Of a DNA stretch of 49,737 bases, positions 33,229-36,661 are shown one piece after another. The position numbers and the translations under genes were made by a program. This DNA is from a bacterium. GTDB lineage: Bacteria > Verrucomicrobiota > Kiritimatiellia > CAIVKH01. The DNA lies in NCBI GenBank assembly GCA_030432155.1, contig JAUIHQ010000004.1, positions 1 to 49,737 of the forward strand. The letters are read 5' to 3'. The number at the start of each line of letters is the position of its first letter. The stretch's first letter is position 1. The notes under the pieces are model-generated. The model made no database searches. It saw only the letters and a list, made by a program, of their open reading frames with translations, and had not been told where the DNA came from.

Positions 33229-34206
33229 TCAGCTCGCATACAGGAACCGGGCGGTCAGACGGTTCAACAGCCACATCACCAGCAGCAGGAAACCCGCCAT
33301 CACATTCCACGGTTCATGCGGAGACGCCACCGCTACCCCCGCCTGCACCACGATCAGCAGGCTGATCAGCAAACCAATGGTTCCCGGTCTGCTTTGCGGC
33401 ACCATGAAATTCCAGACCGGATGCTGAACGGGCCGGAGATTATCCGCAAACTGGGTGGAGGCATACATGGCAATCCCCGCCGATAGAACAATGGCCGCCA
33501 CCGCCCGCCCGATGTTGTCCAATTGGTCAGGATACAGAGACGCGACAAACATCAGCCCTCCCAGAATCAAGGAAAGGGGCGGAAAAACCCGGGGAGCCCC
33601 GACCTTGTCCCGGGAAACCTCATGCGAAGCAAGCAGGGTTACCGAGAAAATGTAGAGACCGATCATGAACGCGGCACAGATGACCACGGGCTGCAGAAAT
33701 CCCTGGCCGGAAGCAATCGTCGCCCCCAGCAACACGTGAAACCCCCGGCACGCCCCCATGACCGCCGGACCGACAATGCGAAGATCCTTGGCAAACAGGT
33801 CATAGAACAGAACCAGGAAAAGCAGCGACAACGCCGCCCATAAAACAGCGGGCCCGAGCCGCACCGCAATCATTGCCGCGCCGAGAAAACACAGGGATGC
33901 GGCCAGCACCGCCGGCGCCACGCCAACCCGCCCTGACGGAATCGGCCGCCCGGGCCGCTCACGCGCATCCACTTCGGCATCGGCAACATCATTGAGGATC
34001 AGCCCCCCGGTATAGAGCAGGACACCCACGGCGATACCCGGTCCCAAACCGGCAAACGATTCGCGGGCCGTCGGCGTGGTCAGCAAAAAACCGATGATGA
34101 CATCACCGGGAAGGGTAAAAAGGTTCGGAATGCGGAGCATTTCCACCCAGCCCCGCACCCGGGCGCTCCATCCGGGGCGGAGACCTTTCTCGTGCGTATT
34201 CTCCAT
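33229..34206 (-). CDS. UbiA-family prenyltransferase
   Basis: This integral membrane transferase (325 aa from the chosen ATG) moves a prenyl chain onto an aromatic or polyol acceptor. The first Asp-rich motif is NDVADAEVD (72-80), followed by ARERPGRPIPSGRVG, the family hallmark. A second acidic region, YDLFAKDL, is weaker than the usual DxxxD. About nine hydrophobic helices are visible. The spacing resembles geranylgeranylglycerol-phosphate or digeranylgeranyl-type UbiA members and polyprenyl synthesis enzymes, so the acceptor is uncertain. In-frame ATGs at 34242 and 34215 are possible alternative starts. It is divergent from gcvT. Confidence 0.82.
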   Translation of the reverse strand: MENTHEKGLRPGWSARVRGWVEMLRIPNLFTLPGDVIIGFLLTTPTARESFAGLGPGIAVGVLLYTGGLILNDVADAEVDARERPGRPIPSGRVGVAPAVLAASLCFLGAAMIAVRLGPAVLWAALSLLFLVLFYDLFAKDLRIVGPAVMGACRGFHVLLGATIASGQGFLQPVVICAAFMIGLYIFSVTLLASHEVSRDKVGAPRVFPPLSLILGGLMFVASLYPDQLDNIGRAVAAIVLSAGIAMYASTQFADNLRPVQHPVWNFMVPQSRPGTIGLLISLLIVVQAGVAVASPHEPWNVMAGFLLLVMWLLNRLTARFLYAS

Positions 34207-34326
34207 ACACCCCATGGTGGTGAGGACCGGATACCGGGTCAAGGCGCTTGTACGGGCAGTGGCGCAATTCCCCGAATCGTGGTATGTTTCATGTTTTATA
34301 ACTGTTCAGCAGGACTTCGAGATCAC

Positions 34327-35424
34327 ATGACGGAACAACTGACACCGCTACACCAGACACACGTAAACCTTCACGCCCGCATGGCGCCGTTCGGCGGATG
34401 GCTCATGCCCATCCAGTATGAAGGCATACTCGCGGAGCACCAGCACACCCGCGTCAACAGCAGCATCTTCGACATCTCGCACATGGGAGAGTTCGAACTC
34501 CGGGGTCCCACCGCCGGTTCCGACCTTGAGCGACTTCTTACCCAGCGGATCGACACGCTCAACATCGGTCAGTGCCGGTACGGCTTCCTGCTTCAAGACG
34601 ACGGAGGGGTTCTCGATGACCTCACCTGCTATCGACTTGATGAGAACCGATACTGGCTCGTGGTCAATGCCGCAACGTGCGAAGGCGATGCCGACTGGAT
34701 CCGGAGTCGGCTCTCGCCCGACACCACATTCGAGGATCTCTCCCCGGCCACCGCCAAACTCGATGTGCAGGGCCCGACCTCCCGCCGGGACATGGAGGAA
34801 GCCCTCGGCGTATCCCTGCCCGACCTCGGATATTTCCGCAGCACCGCCATCGACCTCCTCGGTATTCCCTGCCTGCTGAGCCGGACCGGCTACACCGGCG
34901 AATGGGGCTACGAACTCTACCTTCCTTGGGACGAAGCCGGGCGCTTCTGGGATGCGTTGACCGCGCCGGGACGGATCAAGCCCGCAGGCCTCGGTGCACG
35001 CGACACCCTCCGCCTCGAGGTCGGCTATCCGCTCTATGGCCACGAGCTGAGCCGTGATCGCACCCCGGTCAGCACATCACGCGGGATGTTTATCGACATG
35101 GAGAAGGATTTTATCGGGAAGGCGGCTGTCGAAAGGGAACTCAAGGAGGGCGCGGGACGCTACGTGGTCGGTCTGCTTCTCGACTCCAAACGGGCGGCAA
35201 GGGCCGACGCCGCGGTCTTCGATGGAGATCGGGAAATCGGCGCCGTCACCAGCGGCTCCCTCGGTCCCAGCCTTGACCGGGCTATCGCCCTGGCCCTTGT
35301 TGACGACGGGTACACATCGCCGGGAACAGAGGTCGAAATCGATCTGCGCGGCAAAAGGCTCCCGGCCACGGTCGTGGAGCTTCCGTTCTACCGGGAAGGT
35401 ACGGCCCGTAAGAAACCGGCCTGA
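34327..35424 (+). CDS. gcvT: Glycine cleavage T-protein (aminomethyltransferase)
   Basis: GcvT transfers the methylene unit from the lipoyl-bound aminomethyl group on the H protein to tetrahydrofolate. The 365-residue length is normal. Hallmarks are HARMAPFGGWLMPIQY (16-31), IFDISHMGEF (the conserved DxSH region), QCRYGFLLQDDGGVLDDL, the folate-binding RTGYTGEWGYELY and the C-terminal KRAARADAAVF/TSGSLGPSL. The start is the ATG at 34327 after a weak AGGACTT site; a longer frame to 34192 is unconserved. Usually gcvT is followed by gcvH and gcvP, but here it is followed by a 220-bp foldback element. T, H and P must therefore be dispersed, or this member may serve a folate-dependent role of its own. 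Confidence 0.9.
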   Translation: MTEQLTPLHQTHVNLHARMAPFGGWLMPIQYEGILAEHQHTRVNSSIFDISHMGEFELRGPTAGSDLERLLTQRIDTLNIGQCRYGFLLQDDGGVLDDLTCYRLDENRYWLVVNAATCEGDADWIRSRLSPDTTFEDLSPATAKLDVQGPTSRRDMEEALGVSLPDLGYFRSTAIDLLGIPCLLSRTGYTGEWGYELYLPWDEAGRFWDALTAPGRIKPAGLGARDTLRLEVGYPLYGHELSRDRTPVSTSRGMFIDMEKDFIGKAAVERELKEGAGRYVVGLLLDSKRAARADAAVFDGDREIGAVTSGSLGPSLDRAIALALVDDGYTSPGTEVEIDLRGKRLPATVVELPFYREGTARKKPA

Positions 35425-35467: not shown

Positions 35468-35687
35468 CTAGCCCGCATATTGCACGAGCGGTGGAGCCGT
35501 TCGTGCAATATGCGCTTTGATTGCGGTACTTCCGCAACCAAAGTTTCGGCGCGGCGCTTGCGCACCTTGCTCAAGGCTAACCCTTCGACGCGACGAAAGG
35601 CAAATCCGGAGCAAGGCCCGCAAATGCGGGGCGCGTCGAAGCCAGAAGGGCGGATATTGCACGTGTATCGTGCAATATCCGGGCTAG
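35468..35687. mobile_element. 220-bp CTAG-bounded foldback element (MITE-like) with internal stems
   Basis: Ends: CTAGCCCG at 35468-35475 and CGGGCTAG at 35680-35687, within 20-base terminal inverted repeats with one mismatch. Inside are hairpins with perfect 14-base arms (35474-35487/35501-35514) and 13-base arms (35651-35663/35669-35681). Further perfect stems are CCTTGCTC (35565-35572) with 35609-35616, CTTCGACGCG (35583-35592) with 35632-35641, and CCCGC AAAT GCGGG (35617-35630). The two longer internal pairs interleave like a pseudoknot. CTAG at both ends could be a target duplication. It has no coding capacity, and no transposase lies nearby. Confidence 0.6.
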
Positions 35688-36661
35688 CGGGACAGGGAGA
35701 AGGAGCCGCTGTAGTCGCCGTCTTCATTGGCGGCGGTAATTGCGGTGCCGGAAATCGTCCCGATGACCCTGCGATCCACCACGGTGCCATTAAAAATAAC
35801 CGTTCCGGTCAAACCTGCACCGTCGTCGGTACTGCCGACGAGAGAAAATTCATTTCCATCCAGGGTTGCGGTCAGGGCCTGACCGGGGAGCAGAGAATCA
35901 CTGAACACCACGCCCCGATCATCAATAACGACCTGGGCGCCACGGGAGCTGCAGTCCTGGGGTCCATTGGTAACGCTCAAACAGGTCGTGGCGGTACCGG
36001 AATATGTACCGGCGGCATCGACGGGATCGATCGGATCGCCGGAGGATCCGTCGCCGCCGCCCCCGCCGCCATCATCAGAACCCGAGTCGGAAATCAGGTA
36101 CGCGGCCCCGGCCACTGCAACCGCACCTCCGGCAATGATGCCGATGGTGGTGGCGCTGATGCCTTCATCCCGGTTCGGAGATGAGGGCGCGGCCGTCGCA
36201 CCGCCGGATGTATATCCGCCCGTCGGGGTGACAATCGGGGGAGGCGTGGTCGTGGTACGCGGGGCGGGCGTGGTCACCGCCTCCGGATCACGGAGAGCCA
36301 GTTCGTACCAGTCGGTCTCTTCGATCGACCCGCCCTCGTCCTGGGCTTCCATATAATAGGACACGGAGGAAACCCCGCTGAGCATGTTTGCCTCGATCGT
36401 GCCGATATACAGGCTCATCGCCGAAGGATTCATGGTCACACGAAACGGTGCGGCATCGCGGAACAGGGCGTAAAACAGGGTCACGGATTCAACCGCGCCC
36501 TCTCCGCCGGTCACTTTTGCCTTGAGGGTGATCGACTGTCCCTTCACCGCAAAAGACGGGGGGGTATGTTCAATGCGAATCGGTTCCGCGAACGAGGCGG
36601 CGGCCAACAGCGGAACAATCGCCAGCCACCCAAATCGAGAAATGGTTTTCATGCGTTTCAT
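35684..36661 (-). CDS. Exported protein with Ig-like domain, Pro/Thr linker and a mid-protein membrane helix
   Basis: I do not recognise the 325-residue family. After a signal peptide (FGWLAIVPLLAAASFA), residues 27-122 form an Ig-like domain (ITLKAKVTGGEGAVESVTLF, split by VSYYMEAQDEGG). A Pro/Thr-rich linker (TTPAPRTTTTPPPIVTP) follows. A single hydrophobic helix (TTIGIIAGGAVAVAGAAYLI, 171-190), a Gly/Asp/Ser linker and a C-terminal beta domain with two Cys (residues 217-325, TYSGTATTCL, DCSSRG) complete it. Its TAG stop codon comes from the CTAG terminus of the foldback element, so the last residues may differ from an uninterrupted ancestor. The start is the first ATG after a GGAGG site; a second ATG follows three codons later. 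It probably sits in the envelope, with the two beta domains separated by the helix. Confidence 0.65.
   Translation of the reverse strand: MKRMKTISRFGWLAIVPLLAAASFAEPIRIEHTPPSFAVKGQSITLKAKVTGGEGAVESVTLFYALFRDAAPFRVTMNPSAMSLYIGTIEANMLSGVSSVSYYMEAQDEGGSIEETDWYELALRDPEAVTTPAPRTTTTPPPIVTPTGGYTSGGATAAPSSPNRDEGISATTIGIIAGGAVAVAGAAYLISDSGSDDGGGGGGDGSSGDPIDPVDAAGTYSGTATTCLSVTNGPQDCSSRGAQVVIDDRGVVFSDSLLPGQALTATLDGNEFSLVGSTDDGAGLTGTVIFNGTVVDRRVIGTISGTAITAANEDGDYSGSFSLSR

Follow-up and report, generated by a model that had tools for sequence, protein, structure and literature searches.

The window analysed here, a stretch of 49,737 bp from a genome of the class Kiritimatiellia (phylum Verrucomicrobiota), contains at positions 35468-35687 a block of inverted repeats that lies between two convergent genes, gcvT on its left and a gene encoding a 325-aa protein on its right. 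On re-reading the sequence, the limits of the block given in a preliminary description, with a CTAG at each end, proved correct, and we could confirm both that gcvT lies directly to the left and that the leftward open reading frame 35684-36661 ends in the right-hand CTAG. The features of the locus are the following:

34192..35424, + strand: gcvT (aminomethyltransferase), adjoining on the left and converging with the gene of the 325-aa protein; coordinates are those of the ORF as listed, and the true start may be further in
35468..35471, no strand: left copy of the target duplication, CTAG, 4 bp; its direct-repeat nature is taken from 48 copies
35472..35683, + strand: the MITE proper, 212 bp, with ends CCCG...CGGG
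35474..35514, + strand: left terminal hairpin, arms 35474-35491/35497-35514, containing most of the left terminal repeat
35515..35543, + strand: second hairpin, CTTTG.../...CAAAG
35545..35640, + strand: central branched part, with an outer stem 35545-35552/35633-35640 enclosing inner hairpins
35583-35592/35632-35641: alternative stem of the central part, interleaving with 35565-35572/35609-35616
35575..35582, no strand: GG-CTAA-CC close to the middle, with a YTAR of the target type
35651..35681, + strand: right terminal hairpin with 13-bp perfect arms
35684..35687, no strand: right copy of the target duplication, CTAG, of which 35684-35686 is the TAG stop of the leftward gene
35684..36661, - strand: gene of the 325-aa protein, whose stop codon is the target; C terminus as in element-free orthologues

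The terminal arms of the MITE are 20 nt long and show a complementarity of 95%. Two long hairpins had been described as perfect; this holds for the right one (35651-35663/35669-35681, 13 bp), whereas the left one is near-perfect, its 18-nt arms (35474-35491/35497-35514) being 94% complementary and perfectly paired over 14 bp only. The interleaved perfect stems are present as reported, one of 8 bp (35565-35572/35609-35616) and one of 10 bp (35583-35592/35632-35641). Seven pairs of perfect inverted repeats, each 8 bp or longer, lie in the block, while 100 single-base shuffles gave a mean of 0.39 and a maximum of 4. Folded as RNA it has a z-score of -10.8, and its other strand, folded as DNA, one of -12.2; none of 200 dinucleotide shuffles was as stable on folding. 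The 212-bp MITE contains no transposase gene, and the frames that cover it are mechanical ORFs running through.

The window genome (3.89 Mb in 466 contigs, 86% complete) was searched for relatives of the block by DNA search, which was followed by an end-motif search that added more, and the full-length set was recovered by a covariance model. Ten further full-length relatives and several truncated ones were obtained, the copies being dispersed over the genome. The ten full-length relatives have one common form of 188-196 bp with the tetramers, and the window copy represents a longer form. To these we added copies from other genomes, the closed genome G354 (5,957,605 bp) being scored apart. In the resulting set of 48 copies, which takes in 29 of 47 listed relatives (4 of the others belong to G354 and 14 are partial or at contig edges) and leaves aside copies of the window genome that are truncated and a few other relatives showing inserts or solo hairpins, the flanking tetramers are identical in 39 and differ by one base in 8. 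Nineteen of the 39 identical pairs are asymmetric direct repeats, such as CTAA/CTAA and TTAG/TTAG in the window genome, and not one pair is inverted only; in G354 the flanking tetramers are identical in 26 of 37 copies. Since the asymmetric cases are direct repeats and none is inverted only, the tetramers are target duplications that lie outside the inverted repeat, and the comparison among copies supports the CTAG duplication at the ends of the window element.

A single IS1380 transposase was found in the window genome, a protein of 437 aa encoded on contig C123 (NF033539, 2e-120; PF13701, 7e-166). The element that carries it, the only complete IS1380 copy of this genome, measures 1566 bp including duplications and has the ends CTAG-CCCGGATATTGCATGA and TCATGCAATATCCGGG-CTAG. 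The MITE agrees with these ends in 15 of 16 letters on the right and in 14 of 16 on the left and has the same 4-bp target duplication, CTAG/YTAR; other IS1380 elements of the class show the same kind of ends, again beside YTAR. The preliminary description had offered a MITE as one of two readings, and the many copies in the genome, the partner transposon with matching ends and the 4-bp target duplications bear it out: the block is a real mobile element of a known kind, an IS1380-type MITE, with an unusual settlement pattern and a many-hairpin build that is conserved. We consider it very probable that a DDE transposase of the IS1380 family mobilises it in trans. An intact partner was found in the window genome, but most of the genomes that carry the MITE show none. 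Across the class the co-occurrence of the two is weak, with the MITE in 24 of 288 genomes, an IS1380 relative in 23 of 288 and both in 4, where about 1.9 would be expected. Among the 18 other MITE-bearing genomes, NF033539 scored above cut-off in one and below it in seven more, and it was absent from both closed ones, G354 and G499. MITEs often lose their partner transposons, and a resident intact partner is not required of MITEs in general. Partner loss or poor assembly of repeats may explain the missing IS1380, and a different mobiliser is possible in the genomes that lack it.

By DNA search the family was detected in 12 of 58 genomes and in 14 of 288 genomes of the class, the window genome being counted in both. 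With the covariance model it was found in 24 of the 288 genomes, representing 19 of 113 genera, at E <= 1e-4, and in 19 of 387 genomes of the phylum, three of these outside the class, at E <= 1e-6. A pattern scan of named genomes returned five stretches; each came from an assembly labelled Kiritimatiellales, Kiritimatiellaeota or Lentisphaerales, and so most probably from the class Kiritimatiellia. Plasmid and phage records gave no match to the element. G354 holds 56 end motifs, compared with 0 for the reversed control, and about 43 MITE loci, in a shorter form of about 145 bp. A literature search found neither an IS1380 MITE with CTAG targets nor such repeats in Kiritimatiellia.

The target duplications bear directly on two other ways of reading the locus. 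The preliminary description had suggested that the insertion set the C terminus of the 325-aa protein, the element bringing the TAG, and neighbouring frames do end in the border tetramer in 43 of the 84 scored copies; however, the border consists of duplicated target sequence, and because the right CTAG is a copy of that target, the 325-aa gene had its TAG before the element inserted. The protein was matched in 26 of the 58 genomes searched, the window genome counted. We read 13 relatives and, setting aside one in a wrong frame (L081), found that all 12 readable orthologues without the element end, in the alignment, within one residue of the window protein, so the longer C terminus that the suggestion implied is not seen. 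In addition, six proteins whose ends lie at an element were tested: four have a C-terminal Pfam domain that reaches to 3 positions or fewer from its own end, and two are uninformative. We therefore find it hardly credible that the element determined the end of its neighbour. It is very improbable, too, that the block is a REP/REPIN-type element moved by a RAYT-like Y1 transposase. Such a gene does adjoin the IS1380 element on C123 (L027:1906-2562; Y1_Tnp, 8.6e-13; REP_Tyr_transpos, 72.9 bits, below the cut-off of 80), and the block is built of hairpins, but direct 4-bp duplications flank 39 of 48 copies and the ends equal those of a DDE transposon; to our knowledge, target duplications are not expected of REPINs or of Y1 transposition. 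Around the RAYT-like gene itself there are short repeats that resemble REP elements of their own.

The other reading offered in the preliminary description was a structured RNA, and here the stems do covary across copies. Over six diverged copies, 96.2% of cells are paired, and both partners have changed in 30 of 88 pairs, compared with 12.4 in shuffles and 1-5 in slid controls. G.U and A.C mismatches are, however, equally frequent, 40:40 in 76 sequences from seven groups; most of this count (24 to 23) comes from nine window-type copies, and the G354 alignment contributes 3 usable pairs only. Since selection on a one-strand RNA would put G.U above A.C, the equal counts indicate that the structure is not maintained as RNA of a single strand, and they fit upkeep at the DNA level or arm-by-arm correction during replication. 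A functional structured RNA, a regulator or small RNA that transposition happens to spread and whose fold is under selection on one strand, would account for the strong fold and the covariation, and the MITE, which often lies directly behind a gene, would be transcribed. We nevertheless consider it improbable: besides the balance of mismatches, the orientation relative to the gene is even (13:13), the copies are many per genome and their distribution is patchy, and Rfam gave nothing at gathering score for the window and 12 loci with relatives and, for the element at a loose threshold, one match at chance level (E 0.83). What stands of the RNA reading is a conserved, covarying structure; selection on one RNA strand, with G.U equal to A.C and no Rfam match at gathering score, is not supported. 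Covariation without strand bias means that MITEs with hairpin arms can pass for structured RNAs.

The copies of the family are found on stop codons in excess, as judged with a simple purpose-made gene caller. In G354, where 36 of the 37 full copies among the 43 loci were scored (L325 was left out for a shifted border), the stop of a called gene lies inside the duplicated tetramer in 25 of 36 insertions, compared with 4 of 46 other YTAR in the same sequences. The corresponding figures are 18 of 48 insertions and 7 of 221 background YTAR for the remaining genomes, and 6 of 11 and 1 of 23 for the window genome, which is part of the 48-copy set. When all YTAR of a locus were put on an equal footing, with the insertion site counted among them, a within-locus test gave P = 0.0003 (G354), 0.0001 (others) and 0.009 (window genome alone). 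The excess also holds when the comparison is confined to YTAR that lie no more than 100 bp downstream of a stop (25 and 5 vs 4 and 11, P = 0.0005). These comparisons replaced a first null, drawn from the window only and too small with its 16 sites, in which an open frame of at least 200 codons ended at the border in 12 of 24 own-genome sites, the IS counted, vs 4 of 16. Autonomous IS1380 copies lie on a stop in 1 of 10 cases, whereas MITEs do so in 43 of 84 (P = 0.018), and the excess thus belongs to the MITEs; the ten IS1380 copies are those of 21 loci with clear ends, and their equal duplications (10 of 10) are partly a matter of choice, because they were picked for ends with a matching tetramer.

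The likeliest and simplest reason for this excess is retention at harmless sites, which we infer in place of targeting: landing on a stop is harmless because the stop is regenerated and no promoter is hit. For a MITE that is numerous in a gene-dense genome, a target that contains a stop, together with a duplication that rebuilds it, would make the gene end a site without harm, and the contrast between MITEs and autonomous copies makes retention versus targeting directly testable. The hairpins behind the stop might also act as a portable gene end, that is, as a terminator or 3'-end stabiliser, with selection for this role giving the excess. The persistence of the excess against YTAR just downstream of stops and its absence from IS1380 copies would agree with such a role; however, harmlessness alone could produce the same pattern, the elements show no orientation bias relative to the gene, and convergent gene pairs are not significantly enriched (16 of 34 vs 2 of 11, P 0.16), so that, judged from sequence comparisons, the role is a real possibility but a doubtful one. 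A broader view, which we put forward tentatively as rather unlikely, is that of a mobile gene end distributed over the phylum, with the overlap of YTAR and stop as a safe harbour, a two-strand fold kept at the DNA level and two modules around a central target motif, which would spread by capping genes rather than disrupting them and may supply portable terminators or insulators.

Returning to the IS1380-type MITE, the events at the locus can be pictured as follows. An IS1380-family DDE transposase would recognise ends of the CCCGNATATTGCAYGA type and insert the element at YTAR, above all at CTAG, with duplication of those 4 bp. The target here was the CTAG in which the leftward gene of the 325-aa protein has its TAG stop, and the duplication preserved that stop. 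The ends of the MITE are drawn out into hairpins and its interior is a chain of further ones, which the family keeps through changes on both sides of the stems. This upkeep probably concerns the DNA, either as a hairpin or cruciform or through arms that correct each other during replication, rather than an RNA of one strand. Copies accumulate on stop codons, where landing is presumably free of cost and where the hairpins are perhaps tolerable, or even useful, as a gene end.

Fifty of the 76 family members carry, near the middle, a target-type tetramer in the setting GG-YTAR-CC, which looks like a module border. In G354, three of the 43 loci (L301, L320 and L323) hold half-elements whose limit coincides with the central CTAG, which suggests that a segment lying between two copies of CTAG could be lost or could move independently. 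An inverted dimer of homologous halves around the central YTAR was considered and is not claimed, because the inner halves share little beyond short words, mostly of 8-13 letters apart from a single longer stretch, with gaps, in the window copy, and because shuffles score as well (5 to 123 of 300 in nine copies). We leave a two-module build as a possibility, on account of the central motif and of the three G354 copies that end there.

With the IS1380 family (NF033539, PF13701) the MITE has in common the CCCGGATATTGCATGA-type terminal sequence and the 4-bp YTAR duplication; it differs in lacking a transposase gene, in ends extended into hairpins, in an interior formed by a conserved hairpin chain and in the stop-codon excess, which is not seen in the IS copies. 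Bacterial MITEs with RNA-like folds include Correia/Nemis, RUP and ERIC. Another is MITEPye1, of the IS1182 type, which, according to the part of the source available (PMC11578231), resembles the present family in being small, multicopy and mostly intergenic, in having the terminal repeats of a resident IS and in folding into stem-loops. From these MITEs, as far as the available text on MITEPye1 goes, the family described here is set apart by its IS1380 type, an architecture conserved across genera with covariation, landing on stop codons and the central YTAR. REPINs and REP sequences with RAYT, in the portions consulted of PMC2817692 and PMC3116915, are likewise small dispersed hairpin elements without a gene of their own, but the MITE has 4-bp duplications and DDE-type ends. 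TIMEs, presented in the accessible part of PMC4133298 as non-autonomous miniature elements derived from Tn3 and mobilised in trans by a transposase with shared ends, are similar in being non-autonomous and in the mobilisation through shared ends that we propose for the MITE; they differ in transposase family and target, and that part of the article reports no conserved many-hairpin interior for them.

Several further loci deserve description. On contig C112 of the window genome (L016:1-1008), a copy occupies the TAA with which a GroEL-type chaperonin gene ends; in the product of this gene Cpn60_TCP1 extends to 487/490 and the GGM-rich tail is intact. Solo hairpins with MITE-type ends occur at L119 about 1480-1540 (G054) and, in the window genome, at L022 785-827 (C154) and L071 about 1007-1035 (C348); equal YTAR flanks are present in two of the three, and these hairpins may represent minimal mobile units or else remnants of deletion. 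Some copies (L134:1364-1642, L230:300-583, L229:710-973 and L253:706-990) have a short palindromic repeat of the TTCGAC...GCTC(A/G)GG type nested within the element, and these inserts occupy comparable positions in the CTTGCTCAAGG / CCTGAGCAAG stem. Finally, elements of G029 (L116, L124, L129 and L235-L237) carry the hairpin ends of the family and YTAR duplications around an interior of different sequence, which is again a chain of perfect hairpins, the design being kept and the sequence not.
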